This document shows, piece by piece, positions 6,834-36,725 of a stretch of 36,725 bases of DNA. The notes beneath the pieces are model-generated. The model ran no database searches. It had not been told where the DNA came from and worked only from the letters and a program-made list of their open reading frames with translations. Position 1 is the stretch's first letter. Every line of letters begins with the position of its first letter. This DNA is from Phycisphaerales bacterium (GTDB lineage: Bacteria; Planctomycetota; Phycisphaerae; Phycisphaerales; SM1A02): contig JABDLI010000126.1 of assembly GCA_013003065.1 (NCBI GenBank), forward strand, positions 1-36,725, written 5' to 3'. The position numbers were made by a program, and so were the translations under genes.

Positions 6834-6860
6834 CGTGTCGTGTCGTCCGTCAACCGTGGG

Positions 6861-9110: not shown

Positions 9111-9344
9111 TGTAGGACCACGCGTACCACGGTGAAGCAGGGAATCCGCCCCCCTTCGCGCTCCGGCGTCGCGCCTCCGCCCACGCCGGCTCCACCCGTT
9201 GGGGAACCGCGACGAGCGCGGACGCTGACCGCCGTCATCGCCATGCCGCGCGCGGTGCTTCCACGCGACATCGGGCGGCACTATGCTGTTTGGTGCACTC
9301 GCGAAGGGCCGCTGGTCGGTGCCGTCGCCCCGCAGGAGCCAACG
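9111..9344. promoter_or_regulatory. Divergent promoter region between two quinol-dehydrogenase genes
   Basis: These 234 nt separate the cytochrome b/c operon (start 9110, minus) from the NapC-type gene (start 9345, plus), so both promoters must lie here or inside the genes. A weak sigma-70-like pair for the plus strand is TTCCAC near 9259 and TATGCT near 9282, with a 17-nt spacer. I looked for GG-N10-GC sigma-54 elements: the only correctly spaced ones, ending near 9137 (minus) and near 9284 (plus), match the surrounding consensus poorly. No convincing operator dyad was found. Confidence 0.35.
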
Positions 9345-13667: not shown

Positions 13668-13769
13668 GCGGCCACTCCGCGGCGAGGCGAGAAGGCCCCG
13701 ACGCCGATGGACTCCAACAAATACCGCGCCACGACCGCAGGACCCGTGCGGACCGGCCGCGTCACTCGT

Positions 13770-13817
13770 CCCCGGCCGATTCGGCCGGGGCTGGGAACGC
13801 GTCTCCCAGGCCTGGGA
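13770..13817 (-). terminator. Strong inverted repeats downstream of the response regulator gene
   Basis: Two perfect dyads lie 4-52 nt after the response-regulator stop (13822, minus strand). One is the palindrome TCCCAGGCCTGGGA at 13804-13817; the other has arms CCCCGGCCG and CGGCCGGGG with a 3-nt loop at 13770-13790. There is no T-run on either side. They may terminate or attenuate transcription between the regulator and the two sensor genes, or stabilise an mRNA end. An operator role for the downstream promoter is also possible. Confidence 0.5.
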
Positions 13818-13821
13818 ATCC

Positions 13822-15246: not shown

Positions 15247-15301
15247 GAACGGCGGCCCCCGGTCCGCCATCATACTGAGTCCGCCCCGGACCTCACCGAT
15301 C

Positions 15302-18643: not shown

Positions 18644-20889
18644 AGAAGCTCATGCTGACGACCATCGCCGCCCCGCTGCTCACGATGGCGGCCGCGACGC
18701 CCTGCGTTGCGACGGCGCCTGCCGCACGGCCGAACATCATCTTCATCTACGCCGATGACCACGCGACGCAGGCGGTGGGGGCCTACGGCTCGCGGATCAA
18801 CCGGACGCCCAACATCGACCGCCTCGCGCGACAGGGCGTCGTGTTCGACAACTCCCTGGTCACGAACGGCATCTGCGCGCCGTGTCGCGCCGTGGTTCTG
18901 ACTGGCCAGCACAGCCACCGCAACGGCGTCCTCACGAACGCGGAGATCTTCGACGGCGAGCAGATGACGTTCCCGAAGCTCCTCCGGGACGCCGGCTACC
19001 AGACCGCGCTCATCGGCAAATGGCATCTCAAGTCCGACCCGACGGGGTTCGACCACTGGGAGGTCCTGCTCGGTCAGGGCCCGTACTACAACCCGCGGCT
19101 CGACACGCCGGGCGGCCTCGTCAAGCACGAGGGGTACACGACCGAGATCATCACGGACCGCGCCATGGACTGGCTGCGCGAGGGTCGCGACGCCGACCGC
19201 CCGTTCCTCCTCATGATGCAGCACAAGGCGCCGCACCGGAACTGGCAGCCGGGTCCCGATCAGCTCACGCTCTACGACGACGTCGAGATTCCCGAGCCGC
19301 CAACGCTCTTCGACGATTACGCCGGACGCGCCAGCGGCGCCAAGACCCAGGAGATGACGATCGCCGGGCACATGTTCCCGAGCGACCTCAAGCTGGAGAC
19401 GCCGCGGGGTCTGACGGAGACGCAGCTCGCCCGGTGGCGGGCGGCGTACGACCCGAAGAACGCCGCGTACGAGGCCGCCGGCCTGACGGGGCGTGCGCTG
19501 GTCGAGTGGCGATACCAGCGGTACATCAAGGACTACCTGCGGACGATCGCCGCGATCGACGACTCGGTCGGCACCGTCCTCGACTGGCTCGACGCGGCGG
19601 GTCTCGCCGAGGAGACGGTCGTGATCTACTCCTCCGACCAGGGGTTCTACCTGGGCGAGCACGGGTGGTACGACAAACGCTGGATGTACGAAGAGTCGCT
19701 GCGGTCGCCGCTGCTGGTGCGCTGGCCGGCGTCCGTGCCCGCCGGTGTCCGCCGGGCGGAGCTCGTCCAGAACCTCGACTTCGCGCCGACGATGCTCGAC
19801 CTGGCCGGTGTCACGCCGCCGCCGGTCATGCAGGGCCGGAGCCTCGTGCCGCTGCTCACCGGCGCCGGGACACCGCCGGCCCCGTGGCGGGAGTCCGTCT
19901 ACTACCACTACTACGAGTTTCCCGGCGTGCACGCGGTCCCCCGCCACTACGGCGTCCGCACCGATCGCCACAAGCTCATTCACTACTACCAGCTCGGCGA
20001 GTGGGAGCTCTTCGATCTCGTCGCCGATCCGCAGGAGATGCACTCCGTTTACGGCGATCCGGCGTACACCGACGTGCGGGCCCGGCTGGAACGGGAGCTG
20101 ACGCGTCTGCAGGAGCAGTACGGCGACACGCACCCCACCGCCCCCGTCGCGAAGATCCTCGAGCAGACGATGCGTCCGCATCCGGATCTGCCCGGGTACG
20201 AGCTCGTCTGGCACGACGAGTTCAACGGCCGCCGGCTGGATGCGACCAAGTGGAATCACTCACGGCTCGGCCCCCGCCGGAACGCCGTCAACGTGCCCGA
20301 GGCCGTGCGGCTCGACCGCAAGGGGCACCTGGAGATCACGACTTCGCGGCACCAACGCGCCGACGGCACGACCGAGCACCGCACCGCGATGCTCGACACG
20401 CAAGGGTTGTTCGCGACGACGTACGGGTACTTCGAAGCACGCATCCGGCTCCAGACCCAGGTCGGCCACTGGTCCGCGTTCTGGCTCCAGACGCCGACGA
20501 TGGGCGACCCGCTCGGCGATCCCGCCCGCGCCGGAGCCGAGATCGACATCATGGAGTACCTCACGAACGACCACCACCGCGGCCACGTGCAGCACACGCT
20601 GCACTGGGACGGGTACGGGGACGACCACCGCTCCGCCCACTCCCGCGTCCGGGTGCCCGGCATCGAGTCCGGCTTCCACACGTTCGGGTTGGAGTGGACC
20701 GACGACGCGTACGTGTTCTACGTCGACGGCGTCGAGACGTGGCGCACGAGCGAGGCGATCTCCGCCCGCGATCAGTACCTGCTGCTCAGCCTCGAGGTCG
20801 GTCCGTGGGCCGGTGACATCGCGGACGCCACGCTGCCCGACTCGATCCTCGTCGACTACGTCCGGGTCTACCGGAAGTCGTCGCCGTGA
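18640..20889 (+). CDS. Sulfatase-GH16 fusion, predicted secreted sulfated-glycan hydrolase
   Basis: 749 residues; the GTG at 18640 overlaps the previous stop (GTGA) with GGAGG 7 nt upstream. Residues 1-26 are a signal peptide. A sulfatase domain covers about 30-500: [16 protein letters not shown], then the maturation motif CAPCR (Cys79, second Cys82 where Ser is usual), [37 protein letters not shown]16 domain follows at about 517-746: [16 protein letters not shown], a GYFEARI strand, WSAFWLQTP, and the catalytic signature EIDIME with Glu634 as nucleophile and Glu639 as acid/base. GH16 members cut beta-glucans and sulfated galactans such as agar, carrageenan and porphyran. Joining a sulfatase to it suggests one protein that desulfates and cuts the same chain (inference); the exact glycan cannot be read from sequence. 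Confidence 0.93.
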
Positions 20890-24106: not shown

Positions 24107-25561
24107 TTACCGGAGGCCCCAGGACACGTACTTCACATCGACGTACTCGTGCATCACGTGCTTGCCGCCTTCCCGACCGAAGCCCGACTGCTTCATACCG
24201 CCGAAGGGCGCCTGAGCCGTGGACGGCGCGCCGTCGTTGGCCCCGATGATGCCGTATTCCAACGCCTCCGCCACCCGCATCAACCGACTTGCATCGCGGG
24301 TGTAGAAATATGCCGCGAGACCAAAGGGCGAGTTGTTGGCCCACTCGATGACTTCCGTCTCATCGCGGAACGAACGCACCGGCGCAACCGGACCGAACGT
24401 CTCTTCGCGATTGACCAGCATCTCCGAGGTGAACCCCTCGAGGATCGTCGGCGCGTAGAAACGCGGCGACAGACCGTCGATCGTCACACGGGCGCCACCC
24501 GTGCGAACGGTCGCGCCGCCGGCCCGGGCGTCCTCGACGTGCTGCTCGACCTTCTCGACCGCCGCGTCGTTGATGAGCGGGCCGATGCTGACGGCCTCGT
24601 CCAGGCCATTGCCGACCTGCATCGATGCCACCTCGGCGTCGAGGCGGGCGACGAACTCGTCGTAGACGCCCGCCTGAACGAAGAAGCGATTCGCACAGAT
24701 GCACGTCTGTCCGGCGTTGCGGAACTTGGTCGCGACGGCGCCCGCGACGGCGGCGCTCACATCGGCGTCATCGAAGACGATGAACGGCGCGTGCCCACCC
24801 AGCTCGAGTGACAGACGGGTGACGTTCTCGGCCGCCTTCCGCATGAGGAGCTTCCCGACTCCGGTCGAGCCGGTGAACGACAGCTTGCGGACCGCCGGGT
24901 TGCCGAGCAGCTCGTCCCCGATCGACGGGGGATCACCCGCAAGGATGTTCACCACGCCGTTGGGAATGCCGGCCTCGATCGCCAGCGCGCCCACCGCGAG
25001 CGCCGACAGGGGCGTTTCCTCGGCCGGCTTCACCACCATCGTGCAGCCGGCCGCGAGCGCGGGGCCGAGCTTGCGGGTGATCATCGCGGTCGGAAAGTTC
25101 CACGGCGTGATGGCGGCGGTGACGCCGACCGGCATGCGCAGGACGAGGATGCGTTTGTCCGACGACGACGCCGGAATGATCTCGCCCTCGAGCCGGCGTC
25201 CCTCCTCGGCCGCCCAGTCGAGGAACGACGTGGCGTAGGAGATCTCACCCCGCGCCTCGACCAAGGGCTTGCCCTGCTCGAGCGTCATGAGGCGGGCCAG
25301 TCGCTCCTGATCGCGATTCATCAGTCGGGACAGCTCGTGCAGCAGCCTCGCCCGGTCCCCCGCCGGCGTCGCACGCCACGACGGCAACGCCCCGGCCGCC
25401 GCAGCAACGGCCGCGTTCGCATCGGCCCCACCGGCCTTTGCCACGGAAGCGACGACCTCGTCCGTGGCCGGATTGCGGACGTCGAAGCGGTGTCCGCCGA
25501 TCGCGTCCACCGATGCGCCGCCGATCAGACAACGCGTTTCGATTCGATCCATCGTCTGCAT
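24107..25561 (-). CDS. gabD: Succinate-semialdehyde dehydrogenase (aldehyde dehydrogenase family)
   Basis: 484 residues from the ATG at 25561 (MQTMDRIETR), 5 nt after GGGAG; this matches the family length (about 480), whereas the longer open frame adds an unlikely extension. Landmarks: PWNFPTAM (153-160), KPAEETPLSA (Lys178), FTGSTGVGK (229-237), catalytic Glu253 in LELGGHAPF, catalytic Cys287 in NAGQTCICANRF, and ETFGPVAPV near the C-terminus. The Cys-Ile-Cys pair and the KPAEETP stretch are typical of bacterial GabD. It oxidises succinate semialdehyde to succinate with NAD(P)+, the last step of GABA breakdown; glutarate semialdehyde is an alternative substrate. It fits the GabT-like aminotransferase 1.4 kb away, although it is transcribed separately. 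Cytoplasmic. Confidence 0.92.
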   Translation of the reverse strand: MQTMDRIETRCLIGGASVDAIGGHRFDVRNPATDEVVASVAKAGGADANAAVAAAAGALPSWRATPAGDRARLLHELSRLMNRDQERLARLMTLEQGKPLVEARGEISYATSFLDWAAEEGRRLEGEIIPASSSDKRILVLRMPVGVTAAITPWNFPTAMITRKLGPALAAGCTMVVKPAEETPLSALAVGALAIEAGIPNGVVNILAGDPPSIGDELLGNPAVRKLSFTGSTGVGKLLMRKAAENVTRLSLELGGHAPFIVFDDADVSAAVAGAVATKFRNAGQTCICANRFFVQAGVYDEFVARLDAEVASMQVGNGLDEAVSIGPLINDAAVEKVEQHVEDARAGGATVRTGGARVTIDGLSPRFYAPTILEGFTSEMLVNREETFGPVAPVRSFRDETEVIEWANNSPFGLAAYFYTRDASRLMRVAEALEYGIIGANDGAPSTAQAPFGGMKQSGFGREGGKHVMHEYVDVKYVSWGLR

Positions 25562-25588
25562 CGATGCTCCCAGCGAGAGTTGTTGGCA

Positions 25589-25604
25589 TCCGGCGTCGAC
25601 CGGA
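25589..25604. promoter_or_regulatory. Dyad in the gabD / HD-protein divergent promoter region
   Basis: In the 90-nt gap between the divergent starts at 25561 and 25652, TCCGG and CCGGA flank six bases (CGTCGA), a possible operator. TACTCTAAT near 25619-25627 resembles a -10 element for the plus-strand gene. Both are weak single observations. Confidence 0.3.
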
Positions 25605-25651
25605 CGCACAAATGTCGTACTCTAATCGAGGCTTGTCCGCGGCCGCCGCTC

Positions 25652-26185
25652 ATGCACGATCTCATCGCCTGCCTCATCACGATCCAGCGTCTCAAGCAGA
25701 CCCCACGCCGCGGCTGGGAACGGGCGGGCGTCGTCGGACCGGAGTCGGTCGCCGAGCACAGCTTCGGTGTCGGCGTGATCGCCGCTCTGCTGGCCCGGCA
25801 CGGCGACGAGGACGTTGGTCGTTGCGTGGAGTTGGCGTTGATCCACGACCTGGCCGAGTCGCTCGTCGGTGACATCACGCCGCACGACGGAATCTCCCGC
25901 GACGAGAAGTACGCGGCGGAAGCCGAGGCGATCGCCGAGCTGGCGGCTCGCGCGGGAGATCCTGGCCTTGTCGCGGGTTGGCGCGAGTACACGGACGGGG
26001 TGACCGCCGAGGCGCGGCTGGTGCGAGATGCCAACCAGATCGAGATGGTGCTGCAGGCACTCGTGTACGAGCGGGACGACGCGGCGCCCGCGGACACGCT
26101 CGATGCCTTTTGGCGCTCCGCGACGGAGCGGGTGGAGACGGACATTGGACGCCGGCTGCTGGCGGCGCTGCGAGACGCGCGTTGA
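25652..26185 (+). CDS. HD-domain phosphohydrolase, YfbR/HDDC2-like
   Basis: 177 residues from the ATG at 25652; the open frame runs further up but has no start codon in the last codons before this ATG and no homology. The HD fold has metal ligands His36 (SVAEHSFGV), His65-Asp66 (LALIHDLAESLVGDI) and Asp126 (RDANQIEMVLQAL), the pattern of YfbR-type 5'-deoxynucleotidases and their HDDC2 relatives. Expected activity is removal of phosphate from (deoxy)nucleoside monophosphates, with Co2+/Mn2+ in the family. Cytoplasmic. No clear Shine-Dalgarno is seen. It sits between gabD (divergent) and the XRE-cupin regulator (convergent, 55 nt gap), and I see no metabolic link with them. Confidence 0.87.
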   Translation: MHDLIACLITIQRLKQTPRRGWERAGVVGPESVAEHSFGVGVIAALLARHGDEDVGRCVELALIHDLAESLVGDITPHDGISRDEKYAAEAEAIAELAARAGDPGLVAGWREYTDGVTAEARLVRDANQIEMVLQALVYERDDAAPADTLDAFWRSATERVETDIGRRLLAALRDAR

Positions 26186-26240: not shown

Positions 26241-26840
26241 TCAGAACGTCGGCGGCGTGCAGACGCTCACGATTTCGCAGACCTGCGCGGATTGATTGCG
26301 AAATCGGTGGGGCAACCGACTGGGAAAGTAGTACGACTCACCGGGCCCGAGCTTGCGAACCTGCCTTCCGACGGTCACTTCCACCGTTCCGCGGACCACG
26401 ACGCCCGCCTCCTCGCCGTCGTGTGCCAGCATGACCTCGCCGGTGTCCGCGCCGGGTTCATAGCACTCGTGGAGCACCTGGAGCGACCGGCCCTCCAGAC
26501 GCGGACCGACCTGACGGATCAGGATTTCTCCGGCCCGGATCGTCGGCATCTCCTCCCGCGTGTAGAACATCTTGGCCCCGACATCGATGTCGGGGCTGAA
26601 GAAGTCCGGGAGCGAGAGCGGGAAGCCCGCGATGACTTTCTTGATCGAGGCGATGGTCGGGCTCACCCGATTCTGCTCGATCAGCGAAATCGTCCCATTC
26701 GTGACCCCGGCCCGTTTGGCAAGCTCGCGCTGGGACACGCCGTAGAGCTTGCGGAGCGCCCGGAGTCGCCGACCGACGTCGATGGTGCTGGCTTCGCTCG
26801 TGGCGTCGCCGGGGCCAGCGGGCTTGCGAGTCACGGCCAT
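26241..26840 (-). CDS. XRE-cupin transcriptional regulator, PuuR-like
   Basis: 199 residues. An N-terminal HTH_3 domain (about 20-75: VGRRLRALRKLYGVSQRELAKRAGVTNGTISLIEQ is the helix-turn-helix part, given here only to residue 56) is followed by VSPTIASIKKV and a cupin domain (about 115-192; GEEAGVVVRGTVEV, GPGESYYFPSRLPHRF). This two-domain plan is that of E. coli PuuR, the putrescine-responsive repressor of polyamine use, and the order of conserved residues is close to it. It is divergent from the five-gene amine operon at 26980, with 139 nt between the starts, so it most likely represses that operon and itself and is released by a polyamine or related amine (inference). Its transcript may be leaderless. 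Confidence 0.92.
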   Translation of the reverse strand: MAVTRKPAGPGDATSEASTIDVGRRLRALRKLYGVSQRELAKRAGVTNGTISLIEQNRVSPTIASIKKVIAGFPLSLPDFFSPDIDVGAKMFYTREEMPTIRAGEILIRQVGPRLEGRSLQVLHECYEPGADTGEVMLAHDGEEAGVVVRGTVEVTVGRQVRKLGPGESYYFPSRLPHRFRNQSAQVCEIVSVCTPPTF

Positions 26841-26846
26841 GTGTCT

Positions 26847-26858
26847 ATTATATCAAAC
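26847..26858 (-). promoter_or_regulatory. Promoter of the XRE-cupin gene with GTTTGA motif
   Basis: On the minus strand GTTTGA runs straight into TATAAT (26852-26847), followed by only six bases (AGACAC) before the ATG at 26840. Transcription would start at or within a base or two of the ATG, giving a leaderless mRNA. The -35 region is weak (CTTCCG). The A/T-rich TTTGATATAATAGACA resembles the TATAAT-containing PuuR site of E. coli as I recall it. Confidence 0.55.
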
Positions 26859-26914
26859 ATCAGAGGATCGGAAGGCTTCTCATTGGGCCGAAAATGGGGT
26901 TTTTGCCTGATGGC

Positions 26915-26942
26915 TCAAACCTCCGTTGAAGCAATTTATAAT
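26915..26942 (+). promoter_or_regulatory. Promoter of the amine operon with TCAAAC motif
   Basis: A perfect TATAAT at 26937-26942 lies 37 nt before the aminotransferase ATG. The -35 position (about 17 nt upstream) has no good TTGACA; it holds TCAAAC (26915-26920), the same motif that adjoins the divergent promoter at 26853-26858. TCAA and TTGA flank ACCTCCG here (26915-26929). A regulator bound at TCAAAC would cover the -35 region. Confidence 0.5.
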
Positions 26943-26979
26943 CATGGCGGTGCCCAGCGGCACCGGGAGGCGCGGAAAC

Positions 26980-28320
26980 ATGGCCAGCAGCGAATCACTG
27001 CGAACGCGGCGAGCGGCGGTGGTGGCAAAGGCGGTTCCACAGGTCACGACGGCAACCGTCGCCTCTGCCCGCGACGCCATGCTCGTCGATCTCGACGGCC
27101 GCACGGTGATCGACTTTGCCGGCGGCATCGGCGTGATGAACGTCGGTCATGGCAACAAGGCGGTCGTCGCGGCGATCCAGGACCAGGCCGACCGCCTGCT
27201 CCACACATGCATTCACGTCGCGACGTACGAACCCTATGTCGCTCTCTGCGAGAAGCTCGTCGAGCTCTTTCCCCACGGACGAAAGACGAAGGCCCTCTTG
27301 CTCAATTCCGGGGCCGAGGCAGTCGAGAACGCCATCAAGATCGCCCGTCAGGCCACGGCCCGACCAGCGGTGCTGTGCTTCTCGGAGGGCTTCCACGGCC
27401 GCACTCTTCTCTGCGCCTCGCTGACCAGCAAGACGGGCTACAAACGCGGTTGCGGTCCGTTCGCACCGGAGATCTACCGTTTGCCGTTTCCGAGCCACGA
27501 ACGCTTCGGCGACGGGCTGGAGCTGGACGCGTTCGTCCAACGCGAGCTCGACCGGCTGCAGGAGGCATTCACGACAACCGTGTCGGCGCTCGACGTCGCC
27601 GCGATCATCATCGAGGTGATCCAGGGTGAGGGGGGCTTCGTGACTGCCCCGGCGGCGTACCTGCGCGGTCTCCGGAAGATCTGCGACGAGCACGGCATCA
27701 TGCTCATCTTCGACGAAGTGCAGTCGGGATTCTGCCGGACCGGACGTTGGGCCGCGTACCAGCACTTCGATGTTCTCCCCGATCTCTCGACGTGGGCCAA
27801 GTCAATGGGCGGCGGCATGCCGATTTCAGCGGTGCTGGGCCGGGCGGAAGTGGTCGACATGGCGGCGCCCGGCACGCTGGGCGGCACCTTCGGGGGAAAC
27901 CCGGTCTCGTGCGCCGCCGCGCTCGCGACGATCAGCGAGATGGAACGACTGTCGCTCAACGACCGCGCCGAGCATATCGGTCGGCGGATTCGCGAGCGGT
28001 TCGAAGCGTTGCAACGCAAGCTCCCGGCGATCTCCGACGTCCGCGGGCTCGGCGCCATGATGGCGGTTGAGCTGCGGACGCCGAGGGGAGCCCCCGCGAC
28101 GGATCTGGTGCGGGAGGTGGTCAGCGCTTGTGTCGAACGCGGCGTGCTGGTGATCGCGGCCGGACCGTATGCGAACATCCTGCGGATACTCTGTCCCCTC
28201 GTGATCGAAGACGAGCTTCTCGACAAGGGCCTGGACATCGTCGAGGGTGAGCTGGTGCGATGCGCCGCGACAGCTGGCCCGACTCACTCCGCGGCGGCGC
28301 CCACCGGAGCCCGATCATGA
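26980..28320 (+). CDS. gabT: Class III aminotransferase, GABA/putrescine transaminase-like
   Basis: 446 residues from the ATG at 26980, preceded by GGGAGG at 9 nt; this start aligns with that of GabT, and the ATG at 26944 lies within the promoter. Landmarks: DFAGGIGVMNVGH, LLLNSGAEAVENAIKIAR, GFHGRTL (Arg141), IEVIQGEGGF, FDEVQSGFCRTG (Asp245 binds the PLP nitrogen), PLP Lys274 in WAKSMGGGMP, and TFGGNPVSCAAA. It moves the terminal amino group of GABA, 5-aminovalerate or a diamine to 2-oxoglutarate, yielding a semialdehyde; gabD close by would finish the route. GabT, PuuE and putrescine aminotransferase cannot be told apart by eye. First gene of a five-gene operon in which all junctions overlap by 4 nt. 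Confidence 0.92.
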   Translation: MASSESLRTRRAAVVAKAVPQVTTATVASARDAMLVDLDGRTVIDFAGGIGVMNVGHGNKAVVAAIQDQADRLLHTCIHVATYEPYVALCEKLVELFPHGRKTKALLLNSGAEAVENAIKIARQATARPAVLCFSEGFHGRTLLCASLTSKTGYKRGCGPFAPEIYRLPFPSHERFGDGLELDAFVQRELDRLQEAFTTTVSALDVAAIIIEVIQGEGGFVTAPAAYLRGLRKICDEHGIMLIFDEVQSGFCRTGRWAAYQHFDVLPDLSTWAKSMGGGMPISAVLGRAEVVDMAAPGTLGGTFGGNPVSCAAALATISEMERLSLNDRAEHIGRRIRERFEALQRKLPAISDVRGLGAMMAVELRTPRGAPATDLVREVVSACVERGVLVIAAGPYANILRILCPLVIEDELLDKGLDIVEGELVRCAATAGPTHSAAAPTGARS

Positions 28321-29360
28321 TCCCGTTCGCCATCGGCGGTCTTCAGCTCAATCTCTCGGGCCGCCACTCGAATCTCGACCACATATGCGACCGGATCGAG
28401 ATGATGCTGTACCTGTACCCGTGGGTGCAGATGGTGGTCGTGAGTGAGCTCGCGACATTCGGGGGATGGACCGGGCACGCCCAACCGCTGCCCAGTGAAG
28501 CGGAAGAGCGTTACCGCACTCTTGCCCAGCGTCACCAGATCTGGCTGCTGCCGGGCTCGTTCTTCGAGCAGGCGGACGGCAGTGTCTACAACACGGCACC
28601 GGTGATCGATCCCCAGGGGAACGTCATCGCCCGCTACCGCAAGATGTTCCCGTTTCTGCCTTACGAGAGCGGCGTCGAGCCGGGCGCGGAGTTCTGCGTA
28701 TTCGACGTGCCCGGCGTCGGACGCTTTGGCGTGAGCATCTGCTATGACATGTGGTTTCCCGAGACCTCTCGCACACTGGTTTCGATGGGGGCAGAGGTCC
28801 TCCTGCACCCAACGCTCACGGCAAGCATCGACCGCGACGTCGAGTTGGCGATCGCTCGAGCGACCGCCGCCACGAATCAGTGTTTCGTCATCGACATCAA
28901 CGGCGTGGGTGACGGCGGAATCGGGCGGTCGATCATCGTCTCCCCGATGGGCGACGTGCTCTACGAGGCCGGGCACAGCGAAGAGATGCTGCCACTGGAG
29001 ATTGACATCGCCCGCGTTCGCCGGTCGCGTGAGGTCGGCCTCAAGGGACTCGGTCAGCCGCTCAAGAGCTTCCGCGATCGCAAGGTGGAATTCACGGTGT
29101 ACGACCGTACGCCGGAGAGCACCGCCTACCTCGAAACGCTCGGCCCCCTGGCAAAGATGGCGCGAGGCTCCCGCGCGGGCCTGCGCGGACATACGAGCGC
29201 GCCGGGGGCCGATACCCCGGCGCCACCCGGCTCGGGGGACGTGCCCGCGGGCACACCACCGCTCGCGGAAGGAGTGGACACTCCGGACACAAGCGTTGCC
29301 GCCCCGGACACGCCGCCGATGCCACCGCCACCCAACCATCCCAGCGAGGTGCATCCTTGA
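28317..29360 (+). CDS. Carbon-nitrogen hydrolase (nitrilase superfamily amidase)
   Basis: 347 residues; the ATG at 28317 overlaps the gabT-like stop (ATGA) with GGAG 7 nt upstream. The Glu-Lys-Cys triad is complete: Glu44 (VVSELATF), Lys109 (ARYRKMFPF) and Cys142 (VSICYDMWFPE). The family hydrolyses C-N bonds in amides, carbamoyl amines or nitriles; N-carbamoylputrescine amidase and guanidinobutyramidase are relevant members because either would feed putrescine/GABA to the first gene, but the residues seen do not select a substrate. From about residue 285 the protein has a 60-residue Ala/Pro/Thr/Gly tail not found in the family, probably disordered. Cytoplasmic. Confidence 0.9.
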   Translation: MIPFAIGGLQLNLSGRHSNLDHICDRIEMMLYLYPWVQMVVVSELATFGGWTGHAQPLPSEAEERYRTLAQRHQIWLLPGSFFEQADGSVYNTAPVIDPQGNVIARYRKMFPFLPYESGVEPGAEFCVFDVPGVGRFGVSICYDMWFPETSRTLVSMGAEVLLHPTLTASIDRDVELAIARATAATNQCFVIDINGVGDGGIGRSIIVSPMGDVLYEAGHSEEMLPLEIDIARVRRSREVGLKGLGQPLKSFRDRKVEFTVYDRTPESTAYLETLGPLAKMARGSRAGLRGHTSAPGADTPAPPGSGDVPAGTPPLAEGVDTPDTSVAAPDTPPMPPPPNHPSEVHP

Positions 29361-32113
29361 GCCGAAACCCAGGTGATTCGGACACGCGTCAGCATCAACG
29401 CGTCCGGCAGTACAACGCGTCGCAGCTCCGGATGGACACGTGGAACGAGCTGCAGGTCAACTGTTCCTGGCTGAGCGAGACTCATCAGCGCGACCACGAG
29501 GAGCCATGCGCGCTCGTCGCCGAAGGGCTCGAGACGCTGCGGTCGCTCGAGCAGTACTGGGCATTCCCCGGCCGTGAGCAGATGGAGGACATCACGCGGC
29601 TGTTCGAACGCCGCGACTACGATGCGCTGGCTCGCACTGTCCGGGACACGGTCAGGCTGCTCATCGGCGACGCGTACCGGTCGCACGAAGCACGCAAGCG
29701 GGACCGGAGCTCCGAGACGAGACCGGGCCAACGGGCGGATTCCCGAGAGCGACGGGCTTCGGAGCAATCGCGGGTCCAGCGCCCCTACTTCGAGGTGCTC
29801 GTCGTCGACTCGATCGGCCCCGACGAAGAGGCGGAGCTGCGCGAGAGCCTTCAGGACGCGCGACGCGAGGAGGACGAGTTCACCTATGACATCGTGACCG
29901 CCCCCAGCTTTGAAGACGCGATCATCGCCGTCCTCTTCAACCGCACGATCCAGACGTGCGTCCTCCGTTACCAATACGCGTTCCGGACGAAGAACCCGCA
30001 CCCGATCTTCCGACGTTACTTGGACATGATCGACGCGGAGCAACCGGAACAGTGCTACGGCCTCCGGCGAAGCCTGACGCTCGGCCGGATCATCAAGAAG
30101 CTCAGGCCCGAAGTCGATCTCTTCCTCGTGACCGACACGCCGCTCGATGAGGTGGCTGGCAGTCTCGGCCGCTGTTTCCGCCGCGCTTTCTACCGGCTCG
30201 AACAGTACCTGGAGCTGCATCTCAGCATCCTCAAGGGAATTCAGACGCGCTGGGACGCCCCGTTCTTCGACGCCCTGCGTCGATACAGCGCGAAGCCAAC
30301 CGGCGTCTTCCATGCGTTGCCCATCGCCCGGGGCAAATCGATGACGAACTCGCACTGGGCGCGTGATCTGCTCGATTTCTACGGACCCAACATCTTCCTC
30401 GCCGAGACGAGCTCGACCGGCGGTGGTCTCGACTCTTTGCTGCAGCCCCGCGGGCCGATCAAGCGAGCCCAGCAGGCCGCCGCTCGCGCGTTCGGTGCGC
30501 GGCACACGTTTTTCGTGACGAACGGCACGTCAACCGCCAACAAGGTGGTCGTCCAGGCGCTCGTGCAGCCCGGCGACATCGTGCTGGTCGATCGCGACTG
30601 CCACAAGTCTCACCACTATGCGCTGATGCTTGCGGGCGCCTTCCCCGTCTACCTCGACTCGTATCCGCTGACCGAGTATTCGATGTACGGCGCCGTTCCG
30701 CTGGAGGAAATCCTCACGCGTCTCCGCGAGCTCAAGGCCGCCGGGAAACTGGATCGGGTGCGGATGCTCCTCCTCACCAACTGCACGTTCGACGGAGTCA
30801 CGTACGACCCCGAACGGGTAATGCGTGAGGTGCTCGCCATCAAGCCGGACATGATCTTCCTGTGGGACGAGGCGTGGTTTGCCTTTGCGAGCTTCAGCCC
30901 GACGCTCCGGCGGCGGACCGCGATGGCAGCGGCCGCCGAGCTCCGCACCAAGCTGCGGAGCGACGAGTATCGAACGCGGTACGCGGACCGCGGCGAGCAG
31001 TCGATGCCCGACCCGGACCTCACGCGGATCCGTGTGTATGCAACGCACTCCACCCACAAGACGTTGACCGCGCTGAGGCAAGGATCGATGATCCATGTGT
31101 ACGACGAAGACTTCGAGCAGAAAGCGGCGGAGGCCTTCCACGAAGCGTACATGACGCACACCTCGACTTCGCCCAACTACCAGATCATCGCCTCACTCGA
31201 CGTCGGGCGTCGGCAGGTCGAGCTCGAAGGCTACGAGCTTGTCCACCGGAGCATCGGGCTCGCCATGATCCTGCGCGAGCGTATCAACGAGCACCCGTTG
31301 ATTCGAAAGTACTTTTCCGTCCTTCGCCCCGCCGACATGATCCCGCCGAACTTCCGTCCTTCGGGCTTGGAGGCGTACTACGACCCCGACCGCGGCTGGG
31401 AGCGAATGGAGGATGGCTGGCGGACCGACGAATTCACGCTCGACCCCACGCGCGTCACGATCCAGGTCGGAGCGACCGGCATGGACGGCGACACGTTCCG
31501 CAATTTGCTCATCAACGAGTACGACATCCAGATCAACAAGACGTCGCGCAACACCGCGTTGTTCATGACGAACATCGGCACCGCGCGTGGTGACATCGCC
31601 TATCTGGTCGAAGTACTCGCGAAGGTCGCGCAAGAGCTCGACGATCGCCTGTCGATGGAGAGCACCGTCGGCATTGCTCACCACGAAGCACGCGTGGCTT
31701 CGCTCACCGAGAATCAACCCCCGCTGCCCAACTTCAGTGCCTTTCACCCGGCGTTCCGCCCGGATGACGGCACCCCGGAAGGAGATCTGCGGAAAGCATT
31801 CTTCCTCGCCTACGACGACTCCCGCTGCGAGTTCCTTCCCCTCGACGGCTCGGTTTCGGCGGCGCTCGATGCGGGGCGGGAAGTCGTCTCGGCCGCGTTC
31901 GTCACGCCGTATCCGCCCGGGTTCCCCGTCCTGGTGCCGGGGCAGGTGATGAGCCGCGCGATTCTGGACTACTTGCACGCCGTCGATGTCAAGGAGATCC
32001 ACGGGTACGACCCACAGTATGGCCTTCGCATCTTCACCGAAGCGGCGCTGGCCGAGACGCTCGCCGCACCCTCGCTCGCCCTGTCCTACGCCCACGAGGA
32101 GAAGACGCCGTGA
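29357..32113 (+). CDS. Large Orn/Lys/Arg-type PLP decarboxylase
   Basis: 918 residues; start is TTG at 29357 (TTGA overlap with the previous stop) with GAGGT 6 nt upstream. Residues 1-145 are charged and unfamiliar (a low-complexity Arg/Glu/Ser stretch at 108-140). Residues about 145-265 look like the flavodoxin/receiver-like wing domain of inducible decarboxylases. The fold-I PLP domain (about 315-690) has SSTGGGLDSLL, FFVTNGTSTANK, DRDCHKSHH (His416 stacks on PLP), LWDEAW (Asp504) and PLP Lys568 in THSTHKTLTALRQGS. A C-terminal domain follows with PYPPGFPVLVPG, typical of these decarboxylases. AdiA and LdcI have about 715-755 residues, so this one is distinctly longer. The substrate may be arginine, ornithine or lysine, or a modified form. 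Confidence 0.9.
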   Translation: MSRNPGDSDTRQHQRVRQYNASQLRMDTWNELQVNCSWLSETHQRDHEEPCALVAEGLETLRSLEQYWAFPGREQMEDITRLFERRDYDALARTVRDTVRLLIGDAYRSHEARKRDRSSETRPGQRADSRERRASEQSRVQRPYFEVLVVDSIGPDEEAELRESLQDARREEDEFTYDIVTAPSFEDAIIAVLFNRTIQTCVLRYQYAFRTKNPHPIFRRYLDMIDAEQPEQCYGLRRSLTLGRIIKKLRPEVDLFLVTDTPLDEVAGSLGRCFRRAFYRLEQYLELHLSILKGIQTRWDAPFFDALRRYSAKPTGVFHALPIARGKSMTNSHWARDLLDFYGPNIFLAETSSTGGGLDSLLQPRGPIKRAQQAAARAFGARHTFFVTNGTSTANKVVVQALVQPGDIVLVDRDCHKSHHYALMLAGAFPVYLDSYPLTEYSMYGAVPLEEILTRLRELKAAGKLDRVRMLLLTNCTFDGVTYDPERVMREVLAIKPDMIFLWDEAWFAFASFSPTLRRRTAMAAAAELRTKLRSDEYRTRYADRGEQSMPDPDLTRIRVYATHSTHKTLTALRQGSMIHVYDEDFEQKAAEAFHEAYMTHTSTSPNYQIIASLDVGRRQVELEGYELVHRSIGLAMILRERINEHPLIRKYFSVLRPADMIPPNFRPSGLEAYYDPDRGWERMEDGWRTDEFTLDPTRVTIQVGATGMDGDTFRNLLINEYDIQINKTSRNTALFMTNIGTARGDIAYLVEVLAKVAQELDDRLSMESTVGIAHHEARVASLTENQPPLPNFSAFHPAFRPDDGTPEGDLRKAFFLAYDDSRCEFLPLDGSVSAALDAGREVVSAAFVTPYPPGFPVLVPGQVMSRAILDYLHAVDVKEIHGYDPQYGLRIFTEAALAETLAAPSLALSYAHEEKTP

Positions 32114-33669
32114 CCCGAGCCCCATCGAAAGTGATCATGAAGAGCGGACGCAGCATCGCGACGACTGGCGGGGGCCCCGGCCGCCCGCTGGCTTCAGATC
32201 AGGCGACCACGGTCCGCCCGCACGGGCCCCTCCGTGGTCTCTCGGACATCCGCCGATTCTTCTATCGCAACGAAACGCCGATCTACTTCATCAGCGCGAC
32301 GAACTTCAACCTGCTGGGAATGGACGAGTGGATCAGGCACTTCACGTTCATCAATCACATCGACTGCTTCGACGGGCAGCACCCGAACGTGGTGGTTCCC
32401 AAGGAAGCCGCGCACGAGCCCTTCACCTCGATCGAGGACATCAACAACTACCTCCTCTCGCACAAGGAGGTCGTGGACTTCGTGCGGACCCGGGGCCCGG
32501 GCAAGGCGGTGTTCCTGATGTTCGACGCGGAGACGGAGCGGCTGTGCTCGGACATCGGCCTGGAGGTTGCCTTCCCGCCCGCGTCGCTCCGCCAGCAGGT
32601 CGACGACAAGATGGAAACGACCCGCATCGGCAACCGCGCCGGCGTGCCGTCGGTGCCCAATGCCCTGGGTCGAGTGGACAGCTACGACGGCCTTCGACGC
32701 CTCGCCCGTGAGCTTGGCGAGGATCTCGTGGTTCAAACCGCGTTCGGCGACTCGGGACACACCACGTTCTTCATCAGCAACGAAGCCGACTGGAAGAAGT
32801 ACGCGGAGGAGATTACCAACGCGCCCGAGGTGAAGGTCATGAAACGCATCCGCTGCCGGGGATCCGCCCTCGAAGCGTGCGTCACCCGGCACGGGACGAT
32901 CGTCGGCCCGCTCATGACCGAACTGGTCGGCTTCCCCGAGCTCACTCCGTACCGCGGCGGGTGGTGTGGCAACGAGGTCTTCGGCGACACGTTCACCCGC
33001 GAGATCCGCGATTCGGCCCGCCGCTCGGCGTTCGCCTTCGGTGAAGAGCTGAAGAAGATGGGGTACCGCGGCTACTTCGAGCTCGATTTCCTCACCGACC
33101 TCGACAACAACGAGGTCTATCTCGGCGAGTGCAATCCGCGGATCACCGGCGCGAGCTCGATGACGAATCTCGCATCGTTCTGCCATGCGGACGCACCGCT
33201 GTTCCTGTTCCACCTGCTGGAGTGGATGGATGTCGACTTCGACCTCGATGTCGAGGGGCTCAACGCCCGGTGGGCCGACCCGGCGAACATCGACACCTGG
33301 AGTCAGCTCGTCATCAAGCACACCGACGACGCCGTCGACCGGATCGAATCGGCCCCGCCGTCCGGTATCTGGGAGCTGGCCGACGATGGCTCGATCTCCT
33401 ATGTGCGGATGCAGACGCATCGACGCACCGTTCAGTTCGAGAACCGTGCGTTCTATCTGCGGATCGCCGGCAACGGTGACTACCGGTACGAGGGCGCGGA
33501 TCTTGGAATCCTCGTCAGCCCCGGGCGGTTCATGGACGACGACTTCCGACTGGACGACCGCGCGAAGGCCTGGATCGCCGGCATCCGGGGGCAGTACCGA
33601 GGCGCCCCGCCGGTGGGCGCGAGCTCGGCACCGGACCCGGCGGAGGTGGGTGGCTTCAAGCTCCTATGA
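32110..33669 (+). CDS. ATP-grasp carboxylate-amine ligase, specificity unknown
   Basis: 519 residues; GTG at 32110 overlaps the previous stop (GTGA), with GAGGAG 8 nt upstream. An N-terminal domain (about 40-160) is followed by an ATP-grasp fold (about 160-360): Lys167 region (DDKMETTRIGNRAGVPS), VVQTAFGDSGHTTFFI, VMKRIRCRGSALEAC, then metal-binding FELDFLTD (Glu324, Asp326) and YLGECNPRITGASS (Glu340, Asn342, Arg344). Such enzymes activate a carboxylate as acyl phosphate and join it to an amine, or carboxylate a substrate. The Arg-Ile-Thr-Gly motif is like biotin carboxylase/carbamoyl-phosphate synthase relatives, but no biotin protein is encoded here, so amide ligation is more likely (inference). 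The C-terminal 150 residues are not recognised. Confidence 0.88.
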   Translation: MTRAPSKVIMKSGRSIATTGGGPGRPLASDQATTVRPHGPLRGLSDIRRFFYRNETPIYFISATNFNLLGMDEWIRHFTFINHIDCFDGQHPNVVVPKEAAHEPFTSIEDINNYLLSHKEVVDFVRTRGPGKAVFLMFDAETERLCSDIGLEVAFPPASLRQQVDDKMETTRIGNRAGVPSVPNALGRVDSYDGLRRLARELGEDLVVQTAFGDSGHTTFFISNEADWKKYAEEITNAPEVKVMKRIRCRGSALEACVTRHGTIVGPLMTELVGFPELTPYRGGWCGNEVFGDTFTREIRDSARRSAFAFGEELKKMGYRGYFELDFLTDLDNNEVYLGECNPRITGASSMTNLASFCHADAPLFLFHLLEWMDVDFDLDVEGLNARWADPANIDTWSQLVIKHTDDAVDRIESAPPSGIWELADDGSISYVRMQTHRRTVQFENRAFYLRIAGNGDYRYEGADLGILVSPGRFMDDDFRLDDRAKAWIAGIRGQYRGAPPVGASSAPDPAEVGGFKLL

Positions 33670-34667
33670 CCACGCAGGATCTCGCCCTCGACTTCCACGC
33701 TGCGGACGAGCTGGAGCCGGGGCCGACGTGGCAGTCGTGGTTCGACGAGTTCTGGCCCGCCTACCGTCGCTGGTTCGAGCGAGCGACAACGTCGTCGCGT
33801 CCCCGCTACGCCGAGTGTCTGCGCGCCCTTCGCACGCACATGCCGGAGTTCGTGCCCGTCTACGAGCGTCTCACCGAGCTGGCCGGCGGGGGCGACACCG
33901 CGGCGCGATTCCTGAGCCTTTACCGGCCACCACCATTCCTCTCGGGATGCTCGCAGGCGGTGTTCACGGGTGGTCCGACGGCCCTCGTACGGAACTACGA
34001 CTACGCGCCGCGACTGTGCGACGGCATCGTTCTGCGCAGCGCATGGTGCGGCGTGCGCACGATCGCGACGACCGATTGTCTGATCGGCGCCCTCGACGGT
34101 CTCAACGAGCATGGCCTTGCGGTGGCCCTCGCCTTCGGGGGACGCCGTAGCGTTGGCGACGGCTTCGGAATCCCGATCGTTGTGCGGTACGTGCTGGAGA
34201 CGTGTGCCGATGTGCCGTCGGCCGTGGCCGCACTCACACGGATTCCCGTGCACATGGCCTACAACGTGACGCTGGCCGATCGAGACGGACGCCAGGCCAG
34301 CGTGTTCGTGGGACCCGATCGACCCGCCCGCGCGCAGCCGATCGGAATGTGCACGAATCACCAAGAGGACGTCGTGTGGCCGGAGCACGCAGCCCGAACC
34401 CACACGGTCGAGCGGGAGGAATTCTTGCGGTCCTGTCTGGCCGACTCCACGCTGACGCTTCCCGATCTCGTCGACCGTTTCCTGACCCCCCCGCTCTTTC
34501 GACGTGACTACGCACGGGGATCGGGGACCCTCTATACGCTGGTGCTGTATCCGGCCGACGGTGTCGCGGAATACCGCTGGCCGGACCATGGGTGGCGACT
34601 CTCGTTCGAGCGGTTCCCCCAGCGGGGATACGTCGCTCACTATCGGGAGACGAGAGCGCTGCGGTGA
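33666..34667 (+). CDS. C45-type Ntn hydrolase (acyl-CoA:6-APA acyltransferase family)
   Basis: 333 residues; ATG at 33666 overlaps the ATP-grasp stop (ATGA). Residues 1-90 would be the propeptide. The expected self-cleavage site is Gly94-Cys95 in FLSGCSQAVF, leaving Cys95 as N-terminal nucleophile, followed by the family's RNYDY (G-x-N-x-D-like) motif. Later landmarks are ALDGLNEHGLAVALAF (like the GlnNE-GLA block), AYNVTLADRDG and CTNHQ. Members cleave or form amide bonds (isopenicillin acyltransferase and bile-salt-hydrolase-like amidases). As the last gene of the operon after an amide-forming ATP-grasp enzyme, it may release the product from an amide intermediate (inference). No signal peptide, so cytoplasmic. 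Confidence 0.88.
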   Translation: MTTQDLALDFHAADELEPGPTWQSWFDEFWPAYRRWFERATTSSRPRYAECLRALRTHMPEFVPVYERLTELAGGGDTAARFLSLYRPPPFLSGCSQAVFTGGPTALVRNYDYAPRLCDGIVLRSAWCGVRTIATTDCLIGALDGLNEHGLAVALAFGGRRSVGDGFGIPIVVRYVLETCADVPSAVAALTRIPVHMAYNVTLADRDGRQASVFVGPDRPARAQPIGMCTNHQEDVVWPEHAARTHTVEREEFLRSCLADSTLTLPDLVDRFLTPPLFRRDYARGSGTLYTLVLYPADGVAEYRWPDHGWRLSFERFPQRGYVAHYRETRALR

Positions 34668-34708: not shown

Positions 34709-34842
34709 CCCGTGTCCGCGTCCGGGTCCGTGTCCGGGTCCGTGTCCGCGTCCGCGTCCGCGCCCGTGTCCGCGTCCGGGTCCGGGTCCGGGTCCCGGTC
34801 CGCGTCCGGGTCCGTGTCCGCGTCCGGGTCCGGGTCCGCGTT
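34709..34842. repeat. GTCCGN hexanucleotide array, about 22 units
   Basis: Plus-strand units are GTGTCC, GCGTCC and GGGTCC with occasional GCGCCC or CGGTCC. The second base varies among T, C and G, and the frame is unbroken across about 130 nt. It lies between the convergent 3' ends of the C45 gene (stop 34667) and the symporter gene (stop 34848) and ends 5 nt from the latter's stop. Before it, GCACG/CGTGC (34683-34697) is a weak hairpin. Six-frame readings give only Val-Arg or Ser-Val runs, so it is not coding. Confidence 0.9.
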
Positions 34843-34847: not shown

Positions 34848-36368
34848 CTACTTCCCCGCCGCCCGCAGCTCTTCCTCAACCCCCGCAAGCCGCACGCGTC
34901 CTCGGCGGTCACCCAAGCTCACGATGATCCCCACGACCCCCGACACCAGGAAAGACGGCGGCAGCTCCTCGAGCGCGTTGAACGCATCGCCGACGACCGG
35001 CAGGTGCGGCGCCGCGAACTTGAAGAGGGGTACGCACGCGAAACCCGTGATCATGGCAGCGAGCGCTCCGCGGGTGGTCATTCCCTTCCAGAACATCGAC
35101 AGAAGCATCGTGGGGCAGAAGGTGGCTGCGATACCCGACCATCCGAAGACCACGAACCAGAAGATCGTCCGGTCGGGCGTCGTGAGAGCCACCGTCATCG
35201 CCACGCCGAGGGCAACGAGCGCCAGCACCGCGGTGGCCACGCGGCTTCGTCCCACGAGCGCGTCGTCCGGCAGCTCCGGATGCCTCACCTTCTGGTAGTA
35301 GTCCCGCACGTACGCGCTGGAGGCCACGACGAGCAGCGAGTCCACGGTGGACATGATCGCCGCCAGCACGACCGCGATCATCACACCCACGAAGACGACC
35401 GGCAGCACCAGGCTCGTGAGCGCCGGCAGCACGTCCTGACCGCTCGCGCCGAGCACCGCCGCGACGTCGTCGCCCGGTCCCATCAGCAGGTGCCGTCCCA
35501 CGAGACCCGTCAGGACCGCACCGGTATCGGCGAGGAGCGTCCAGGTGATGGCGACGGCCGTTCCTCTGGGGATCTCCCGCTCCGAACGCAACGCGAGGAA
35601 GCGAACGAAGATCTGCGGTGACCCCAGGAACCCCAGGCCGATCAATGCCAGGCTGAGGATTGCGAAGACATTGAGCGTCGAGAATCCCTCGGGTCCCCAG
35701 ACCGACAGCAGACCGGGATCCTGCAGCCGCAACCCCTCCGCCACCGGCGTCCACCCGCCCGCCGCGGCGAGACCGATGATCGGCAGCGACACGAGCCCCA
35801 GGAACATCATCGCGCCCTGAAAGATGTCCGACCAGACGACCGCGAGGAAGCCGCCGCCGATGATGTACGCCATCACGACGCCAAACCCGACGAGCGCGCC
35901 GGTGTAGTAGTTCCACCCGAGAAAGCTGGTGAAGGCGGTGCCGGTCGCGTCGATCTGCGCGCTCACGTAGATCGTGACGAACACGAGCAAAGCACCGGCC
36001 GACACCAGCCGCAGCCGGTGGCTGCGGTCGCGAAATCGCGCTTCGAGGTAATCGGGCACGGTGATGGAGTCGTAGCGATCGGTGAGCCGCTTGAACCGCC
36101 GGCTGAGGAGGATCCACGCCACGCCCACGCCGAGCAGCTCGCCCACGACCACCCAGAACGCCTTGACACCGATGGCGGCGCCCATCCCCGTCAGCCCGAG
36201 CAGCAACCACGCCGACTCGCCCGTCGCGCGGGCCGAGAATGCCACGGCGAGGAAGTTCAGACGCTTGCCGGCGGCGTAGTAGTCACGCACGTCTTTCATG
36301 CGACGCGCGGCGACGATGCCGATCGCGACGAGGATGGCGAGATAGACGACGATGCCGGCGAGGATCAT
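34848..36368 (-). CDS. Sodium:solute symporter (SSS/PutP family)
   Basis: 506 residues with about 13 membrane helices, the normal size and topology of the LeuT-fold SSS family. Start is the ATG at 36368; GGAGG lies 11 nt upstream, rather far. Landmarks: MKDVRDYYAAGKRL after helix 1, ARATGESAWLLLGLTGMG (helix 2, Na+ site and substrate region), TDRYDSITVPDYLEARF, YIIGGGFLAVVWSDIFQG, LGFLGSPQIFVRFLA, and AIMSTVDSLLVVASSAYVRDYY with the Ser/Thr Na2-site residues of helix 8. The overall pattern is closest to proline permease PutP, but a related amino acid or amine is equally possible. It could supply substrate to the adjacent amine operon, though it is convergent with it and separately transcribed. 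It has hexamer arrays on both sides, in opposite orientation. Confidence 0.93.
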   Translation of the reverse strand: MILAGIVVYLAILVAIGIVAARRMKDVRDYYAAGKRLNFLAVAFSARATGESAWLLLGLTGMGAAIGVKAFWVVVGELLGVGVAWILLSRRFKRLTDRYDSITVPDYLEARFRDRSHRLRLVSAGALLVFVTIYVSAQIDATGTAFTSFLGWNYYTGALVGFGVVMAYIIGGGFLAVVWSDIFQGAMMFLGLVSLPIIGLAAAGGWTPVAEGLRLQDPGLLSVWGPEGFSTLNVFAILSLALIGLGFLGSPQIFVRFLALRSEREIPRGTAVAITWTLLADTGAVLTGLVGRHLLMGPGDDVAAVLGASGQDVLPALTSLVLPVVFVGVMIAVVLAAIMSTVDSLLVVASSAYVRDYYQKVRHPELPDDALVGRSRVATAVLALVALGVAMTVALTTPDRTIFWFVVFGWSGIAATFCPTMLLSMFWKGMTTRGALAAMITGFACVPLFKFAAPHLPVVGDAFNALEELPPSFLVSGVVGIIVSLGDRRGRVRLAGVEEELRAAGK

Positions 36369-36400
36369 GAGGGGGGCGGCCTCCGCGGGGGCAGAGTGTA

Positions 36401-36725
36401 CACGGACACGGACACGGACACGGACACGGACACGGACACGGACGCGGACACGGACACGGACGCGGACACGGACACGGACACGGACACGGACGCGGACGCG
36501 GACGCGGGCACGGACACGGACGCGGACACGGTCGCGGACGCGGACGCGGACACGGACGCGGACGCGGGCACGGTCGCGGGCACGGACGCGGACGCGGTCG
36601 CGGACGCGGTCGCGGGCACGGACGCGGACGCGGGCACGGACGCGGACACGGACGCGGACGCGGACACGGATACGGACCCGGACCCGGACGCGGACACGGA
36701 CACGGACACGGACGCGGGCACGGAC
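36401..36725. repeat. GGACNC hexanucleotide array, at least 54 units, runs off the window
   Basis: From 36401 to the end every six bases read GGACAC or GGACGC with variants GGGCAC, GGTCGC, GGACCC and GGATAC, without an indel that I can see. It fills the region upstream of the symporter start (36368), leaving only 32 nt between, so its promoter must lie in these 32 nt, in the array or beyond it. The open frame of 118 codons on the minus strand here (Ser-Val/Ser-Ala runs) is a by-product of the repeat and not a gene. No gene is seen in this 357-nt stretch. Confidence 0.92.

Follow-up and report, generated by a model that had tools for sequence, protein, structure and literature searches.

4-Aminobutanal and 5-amino-2-oxopentanoate both cyclise, and the cyclisation of free amino-aldehydes is the rationale for the capping chemistry of the Puu pathway. 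In that pathway putrescine is γ-glutamylated first, and γ-glutamyl-γ-aminobutyrate (γ-glutamyl-GABA) is hydrolysed later (PMC9397018). A second point of reference is Rv2531c of Mycobacterium tuberculosis, a protein whose structure has been solved and whose activity is stated as not clarified in a review that describes it without a pathway (PMC12910592). Both bear on a five-gene operon (positions 26980-34667) in the 36,725 nucleotides analysed here, hereafter the window, which is contig JABDLI010000126.1 of a Phycisphaerales bacterium (Planctomycetota; assembly GCA_013003065.1). The operon encodes, in order, a class III aminotransferase of the GABA transaminase type (AT), a nitrilase-superfamily amidase (Nit), a decarboxylase of the Orn/Lys/Arg superfamily, an ATP-grasp protein and a C45 N-terminal-nucleophile (Ntn) hydrolase. 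No description of an ATP-grasp/C45/decarboxylase operon was found in the open-licence literature, a body of work outside which most subscription journals lie.

A gene order conserved across phyla

The initial annotation had described a five-gene amine operon with overlapping junctions, and this description held. All five genes lie on the same strand, every reading frame is open from end to end, the families are as first read, and the four junctions (ATGA, TTGA, GTGA and ATGA) each overlap by 4 nt as written. The exact overlap at the decarboxylase/ATP-grasp junction is not certain, because the ATP-grasp gene has a GTG start, its residues 1-37 are unconserved and modelled with low confidence, and an ATG is present at 32137. 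In the copies of this operon at other loci, 4-nt overlaps account for 11/35, 10/34, 18/30 and 12/26 of the measured junctions. What stands out is therefore which genes are kept and in what order, and not the overlaps themselves.

Conservation of the gene order, which the same annotation had proposed as a check, was examined by gathering loci from GTDB genomes and plasmids with the ATP-grasp protein as bait. The order aldehyde dehydrogenase (ALDH, when present)-AT-Nit-decarboxylase-ATP-grasp-C45 is found again at most of the 38 loci studied, both within Planctomycetota and in other phyla. Adjacent pairs were counted for ATP-grasp and C45 at 35 loci, decarboxylase and ATP-grasp at 34, Nit and decarboxylase at 30, AT and Nit at 26, and ALDH and AT at 15. 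ATP-grasp members (E < 1e-180) are present in 19/392 planctomycete genomes sampled, a figure that includes the window's own genome and one member scoring below the cut-off. At E 1e-60 or better they number 5/379 in the phylum of genome G393, 2/111 in that of G394 and 2/146 in that of G392, where these anchoring genomes, from proteobacterial, Trueperaceae and 'Deltaproteobacteria' metagenome-assembled genomes (MAGs), are themselves counted. Median pairwise identities are 61% for the ATP-grasp protein, 58% for both Nit and AT, 53% for the decarboxylase and 42% for C45. Pairwise distances correlate between Nit and decarboxylase (r 0.91), decarboxylase and ATP-grasp (0.87), Nit and ATP-grasp (0.83), and ATP-grasp and C45 (0.57), values in which shared species history is included and which do not formally test for co-evolution. 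Chance would not preserve the order across phyla at this degree of divergence, and the refuting case named in the initial annotation, an order found in no other genome, does not apply.

The gene neighbourhoods also have a degradative flavour. The succinate-semialdehyde dehydrogenase (SSADH) of the window belongs to a group found at 14 of the 26 loci with a complete ALDH, where it mostly adjoins the aminotransferase, and homologues of the PuuR-like regulator of the window lie beside the cluster at three further loci (L015, L074 and L100). The ALDH slot is filled in different lineages by different subfamilies, namely SSADH, betaine/aminobutyraldehyde-type, lactaldehyde/sulfoacetaldehyde-type and PRK09406-type enzymes. 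Such repeated filling of one slot suggests that the pathway includes the oxidation of an aldehyde. Neither an exporter nor any further tailoring gene is a widespread neighbour of the operon loci.

The decarboxylase matches Rv2531c (PDB 9N0N/9N0O; also 9N0P) over its full length, the long N-terminal part included (E 6e-242, residues 20-906 aligned), and its presumed pyridoxal-phosphate lysine, Lys568, and Asp504 are invariant in 35/35 sequences. The AT matches TIGR00700 over its full length with 476 bits against a cut-off of 507, which the copies in the L010 and L015 neighbourhoods exceed; the SSADH match to TIGR01780 is likewise full-length and falls just under its cut-off. The source genome carries an arginase and an agmatinase-type ureohydrolase, both scoring over their cut-offs, and because of these, ornithine or putrescine could plausibly be derived from arginine in the host.

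Variant loci and the core of the system

Some of the most informative loci are those that depart from the common order. At L016 (Shinella zoogloeoides) and L017 ('Roseateles' XES5) the cluster has neither the Rv2531c-type decarboxylase nor a class III aminotransferase. It comprises a SpeB-like ureohydrolase, a PRK07524 2-oxo-acid decarboxylase (733 bits, cut-off 500), an ALDH, the ATP-grasp protein, C45, a D-amino-acid dehydrogenase, RidA and a racemase-arginase fusion, with a Nit homologue several kb away on the opposite strand. The protein called 'alanine racemase' there (595 residues) has an ornithine-racemase-like domain followed by a C-terminal Arginase domain. The IlvB1 protein of Sinorhizobium meliloti, placed by homology in the PRK07524 decarboxylase type, prefers 5-amino-2-oxopentanoate sevenfold (PMC7268258); this compound is deaminated ornithine. 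The L016/L017 genes would thus run arginine through ornithine, D-ornithine, 5-amino-2-oxopentanoate and 4-aminobutanal to GABA, and the decarboxylase, AT and ALDH of the window would take ornithine through 4-aminobutanal to GABA.

Common to both versions are Nit, the ATP-grasp protein, C45 and an ALDH. As both appear to run from ornithine or arginine to 4-aminobutanal and GABA, Nit, ATP-grasp and C45 form the core, with the ornithine-to-GABA conversion as its likely context. With these proteins common to the two routes, the ATP-grasp and C45 enzymes would most simply act on the shared ends, that is, on ornithine or arginine, or on 4-aminobutanal, GABA or capped forms of these.

Two further loci lack the decarboxylase. 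L010, from a deltaproteobacterial MAG, has an ALDH, a saccharopine-dehydrogenase-like protein, a GABA transaminase, Nit, ATP-grasp and C45, and L099, on Cupriavidus necator pBB1, has Nit-ATP-grasp-C45 next to a dipeptide-type ABC transporter. Decarboxylation had been placed at the heart of the system, and that idea is abandoned here, since L010, L016, L017 and L099 all keep Nit, ATP-grasp and C45 without it. Dipeptide-type ABC transporters adjoin ATP-grasp-C45 on Roseobacter, Rhizobium and Sinorhizobium plasmids as well; the rhizobial plasmids carry decarboxylase-ATP-grasp-C45 followed by the transporter, with an amidase in several. Copies of C45 distant from the ATP-grasp gene (Sulfitobacter, Sinorhizobium pSymB) have unrelated neighbours, and a distant Nit relative in Ensifer adjoins PRK07524 and amine ABC genes.

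Several features of these loci were recorded in their own right. The racemase-arginase fusion (L016, 12798-14585) occurs also in L017 and in Sinorhizobium sp. RAC02, which makes three full-length copies among the plasmids. At L098 of Ensifer adhaerens, a nitrilase relative of 38% identity (6001-6711) is overlain by an opposite-strand annotation, 'hypothetical protein', and adjoins genes for a PRK07524 decarboxylase and an amine ABC transporter. In Rhizobium leguminosarum CB782 (L097, 5331-7983) the decarboxylase and C45 genes are separated by two ATP-grasp genes of this family in tandem, of which the first product is 52% and the second, more divergent one 42% identical to the window protein. 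On the R. leguminosarum plasmid NZ_CP071402, a decarboxylase-ATP-grasp-C45 copy (L076, 5018-6178 and 6697-11981) stands beside a NifH-family gene, and a second copy (L019) has a truncated C45 and adjoining transposases.

The ATP-grasp, C45 and nitrilase proteins

The structure model of the ATP-grasp protein (mean predicted local distance difference test score, pLDDT, 81.6) has biotin carboxylase and PurK as its best Foldseek matches, 2V58 among them. The ExNPR motif for ATP and Mg is kept, with E340, N342, P343 and R344 invariant in 37 sequences. In biotin carboxylases such as the E. coli enzyme, the QVEH motif holds bicarbonate and the general base Glu. By alignment to pyruvate carboxylase 2QF7, QVEH is replaced after ExNPR by (T/C/S)GAS in 37/37 sequences (TGAS in the window), and because of this replacement a biotin carboxylase reaction is unlikely, judging from the motif. 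Pfam and NCBIfam searches found no biotin carrier or carboxyltransferase domain in the operon, and a carboxylate-amine ligase is, we infer, more likely than a biotin carboxylase. The component families of the operon are already in the databases, the ATP-grasp family under a name that its sequence, on these residues, contradicts. That name, 'biotin carboxylase' for NF005096/PRK06524, is used in annotated plasmid records, and the members examined are without the bicarbonate motif. No characterised member of the family was found in the open-licence literature.

For C45 the model is more confident (pLDDT 89.4). Its best Foldseek match is isopenicillin N acyltransferase 2X1C (template modelling score, TM, 0.72), followed by N-acylethanolamine acid amidase and bile salt hydrolases. 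The nucleophile, Cys95, is invariant in 35/35 sequences and follows a Gly in 27 and an Ala in 8 of them. Score, fold and nucleophilic Cys all place the protein in the C45 autoproteolytic hydrolase/acyltransferase family. Among its relatives, isopenicillin N acyltransferase takes off an aminoadipyl side chain and Tan of Drosophila cleaves β-alanyl amides. AzsT, a bacterial C45 enzyme of azaserine biosynthesis, strips an N-succinyl group in vitro (PMC10445470). A role for the window C45, the single one found in the source genome, as the predicted remover of an N-acyl cap fits its modelled fold and these experimental precedents.

The Glu-Lys-Cys triad of Nit (Glu44, Lys109, Cys142) is invariant in 34/34 sequences. 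Against N-carbamoylputrescine amidase (AguB) the protein scores 84.6 bits with a cut-off of 410, which makes it a weak relative that fails the equivalog test, and by NCBIfam scores no known nitrilase substrate family fits it. Within the nitrilase superfamily, DavA is an amidase of lysine breakdown that acts on 5-aminovaleramide. Nit might take off part of a cap, or its substrate might be a carbamoyl side product or a primary amide.

A proposed cap-and-uncap route and its alternatives

Our favoured reading, to which this analysis lends a little short of even chances, is that the operon encodes a catabolic cap-and-uncap route to succinate that starts from ornithine or arginine (possibly lysine) and passes through an amino-aldehyde and GABA. 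This reading is built on the observed gene set, its conservation, the intact catalytic residues, the folds and the alternative gene sets, from which every reaction, every substrate and the order of the steps are inferred. Arginine would enter through arginase or agmatinase, and the decarboxylase would yield a putrescine-like diamine. The ATP-grasp ligase would use ATP to attach a small carboxylic acid, either an amino acid or a dicarboxylic acid, to one amine, whether of the diamine or, earlier, of the amino acid; since the decarboxylase-less loci keep Nit, ATP-grasp and C45, the compound that is capped may be an amino acid or an imported amine. With one end protected, the aminotransferase and aldehyde dehydrogenase would convert the free end to a carboxylate without spontaneous cyclisation to a pyrroline. 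C45, possibly with Nit, would take the cap off and free GABA, and the aminotransferase and SSADH would carry GABA to succinate.

A more specific version is also tentatively put forward, with the balance tipped somewhat towards doubt: an undescribed cross-phylum pathway in which the ATP-grasp enzyme caps the ω-amine of ornithine or putrescine and C45 uncaps N-acyl-GABA, as a non-homologous counterpart of Puu. Its front ends would be interchangeable, being either the Rv2531c-type decarboxylase with the aminotransferase, or the racemase-arginase with a dehydrogenase and a 2-oxo-acid decarboxylase.

A number of observations weigh against a capped route. The absence of a clear step for Nit is its weak point. 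The nearest ATP-grasp folds are biotin carboxylase and PurK, and the ligase-type chemistry is deduced. The diamine is not always made by the operon, as the four decarboxylase-less loci show, and all L016 intermediates could be processed uncapped. The rhizobial loci have no AT, Nit or ALDH nearby, and L068 and L072 have no adjacent C45; other C45 genes in the genomes lacking an adjacent one are weak relatives at most (~27-35% identity), with no orthologues among them. Finally, arginase over cut-off is present in 10/26 genomes with the operon against 1/27 without it (p 0.002), a comparison confounded by lineage, and within the window's own order and family the figures are 1/9 against 1/22 (p 0.50). 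The co-occurrence of arginase and agmatinase was dropped as support, since the signal vanishes at that level.

The alternative that survives best, unlikely as we judge it, is an ordinary, uncapped amine pathway, beside which ATP-grasp, C45 and Nit would form a separate module that feeds it by consuming or making small amides or dipeptides containing Orn, Arg or Lys. The dipeptide-type ABC transporters beside ATP-grasp-C45 on the Roseobacter, Rhizobium and Sinorhizobium plasmids and in L099 would suit such a module, as would the missing decarboxylase in L010, L016 and L099, and for L016 a complete uncapped route is conceivable. An ATP-consuming ligase beside a hydrolase would, however, be wasteful in a purely degradative amide pathway, and ATP-grasp-C45 stay beside the pathway genes, with decarboxylase and ATP-grasp distances that co-vary as given above.

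A biosynthetic reading, in which a decarboxylated amino acid would be turned into an amide storage compound or natural product, with coupling assigned to the ATP-grasp protein and C45 acting as an acyltransferase, is improbable. The GABA transaminase, the SSADH or other ALDH and, at several loci, the PuuR-like regulator form a degradative signature across phyla, and the widely recurrent exporter or tailoring gene that might accompany such a product was not seen among the neighbours; this has to be set against a true acyltransferase among the C45 relatives (isopenicillin N acyltransferase) and the genes for ribosomally synthesised and post-translationally modified peptides near the rhizobial copies. 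Little weight is given to the same capped chemistry running from lysine and cadaverine to 5-aminovalerate and glutarate instead of from ornithine to GABA: the decarboxylase superfamily includes lysine decarboxylases and L010 pairs a saccharopine-dehydrogenase-like gene with the absence of a decarboxylase, but the racemase-arginase fusion and ureohydrolase of L016/L017 point to ornithine and arginine. Very improbable is the N-carboxylation of an amine or guanidine by an ATP-grasp carboxylase using activated bicarbonate, a reading for which the best fold matches and the NCBI name speak, and against which stand the (T/C/S)GAS found in place of QVEH with its general base and an operon with no gene for a biotin carrier or carboxyltransferase.

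If the cap-and-uncap route is true, it would be a second, unrelated solution to the problem of reactive, cyclising amino-aldehydes in amine breakdown, it would correct a family that NCBI annotation names biotin carboxylase, and it would provide a testable substrate hypothesis for Rv2531c-type decarboxylases. The rhizobial plasmid copies, one of them near a NifH-family gene, may link the operon to the use of arginine and polyamines in legume symbiosis, for which arginine breakdown is reportedly important (PMC7268258).

The operon and its surroundings

The source genome (4.57 Mb in 385 contigs, 93.7% complete) has Phycisphaerales MAGs as its nearest relatives. Coordinates of the operon and its neighbours are collected in Table 1.

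Table 1. Coordinates and family assignments of the operon genes and their neighbours in the window.
Feature	Position	Strand	Details
Class III aminotransferase, GABA transaminase type (AT)	26980-28320	+	446 aa; PF00202 Aminotran_3
Nitrilase-superfamily amidase (Nit)	28317-29360	+	347 aa; PF00795 CN_hydrolase
Orn/Lys/Arg decarboxylase superfamily, Rv2531c-type	29357-32113	+	918 aa; TTG start; PF01276 OKR_DC_1
ATP-grasp protein, NF005096/PRK06524 'biotin carboxylase'	32110-33669	+	519 aa; GTG start; 752 bits, cut-off 684
C45 Ntn-hydrolase (AAT/C45)	33666-34667	+	333 aa; NF040521 174 bits, cut-off 85
Succinate-semialdehyde dehydrogenase (SSADH), gabD-like	24107-25609	-	TIGR01780 635 bits, cut-off 646
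HD-domain gene, YfbR/HD_3-like nucleotidase	25565-26185	+	between SSADH and PuuR-like regulator
Helix-turn-helix (HTH_3) + Cupin_2 regulator, PuuR-like, divergent	26241-26840	-	NF007408 PuuR 135 bits, cut-off 211
Intergenic region, presumed control region	26841-26979	.	139 nt, gap between regulator and operon
Na+/solute symporter, PutP-like, convergent with operon	34848-36368	-	PF00474; TIGR02121 337 bits, cut-off 516

The SSADH gene lies 1.4 kb upstream of the operon on the opposite strand. No convincing operator was recognised in the intergenic region, and the search upstream of the operon revealed no inverted repeat in common. The PutP-like symporter is a possible uptake system for the pathway. 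Its gene is flanked by hexanucleotide arrays at 34710-34838 (~21 CCGGGT-like copies) and 36400-36725 (at least 54 ACACGG-like copies, reaching the contig end), which yield spurious VRVRVR and SVSVSA reading frames. Farther away, a sulfatase and a glycosyl hydrolase family 16 domain share one 749-aa reading frame (18640-20889). Multihaem cytochrome c genes with CXXCH motifs and cytochrome c7/c3 and NapC/NirT-like domains occupy both strands at 3147-10772, near a PAS-histidine kinase and a response regulator of the sigma-54 activator type (10984-15510).

Relation to known systems

The Puu pathway of E. coli (PuuA-PuuB-PuuC-PuuD-PuuE, with PuuR) shares the logic proposed here, in that ATP is spent on capping, the free end is oxidised, GABA is released, and a GABA transaminase and SSADH follow. 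The parts differ. PuuA is glutamine-synthetase-like and PuuD is of the class I amidotransferase type, and the ATP-grasp and C45 proteins would serve in their place; Puu also has the PuuB oxidase, whereas the window operon is without an oxidase of that type. The statement in the initial annotation that PuuA, PuuB and PuuD homologues are absent from the window agrees with the domain searches of the operon. No PuuA-type glutamine-synthetase homologue was found in the operon or in the genome (an assembly 93.7% complete), where PF00120 matches two proteins, one GlnII-like and the other of 791 aa with no NCBIfam match. No PuuD-type Peptidase_C26 is in the operon, and one clear PF07722 protein elsewhere (G000:C104) has no NCBIfam match; no PuuB-type flavin adenine dinucleotide (FAD) oxidoreductase was found among the operon and flanking proteins tested. 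For the HTH-cupin regulator PuuR is the best NCBIfam match, at a score below the cut-off. Because the PuuA and PuuD types are absent from it, the operon would, if our reading is right, be analogous to Puu and not a member of it. The earlier suggestion that it does a Puu-like job with non-homologous parts thus stands in part: the gene order, the ornithine/arginine-to-GABA gene sets and the C45 fold favour it, and an amide-forming ATP-grasp enzyme, the acid, the amine and the role of Nit are still conjectural.

Individual proteins have relatives in other settings. AzsT, Tan and isopenicillin N acyltransferase share the C45 fold or family with the window enzyme, in different pathways and at low sequence identity. 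Like Nit, DavA and AguB are nitrilase-superfamily amidases, of lysine or arginine breakdown, but the window operon has no agmatine deiminase or lysine monooxygenase. The window ATP-grasp protein is by score a member of NF005096/PRK06524, a family whose name implies carboxylation and in whose examined members the bicarbonate motif is not conserved. Rv2531c is a full-length relative of the window decarboxylase, and whereas the mycobacterial protein has no described pathway, the window copy sits in a defined operon.

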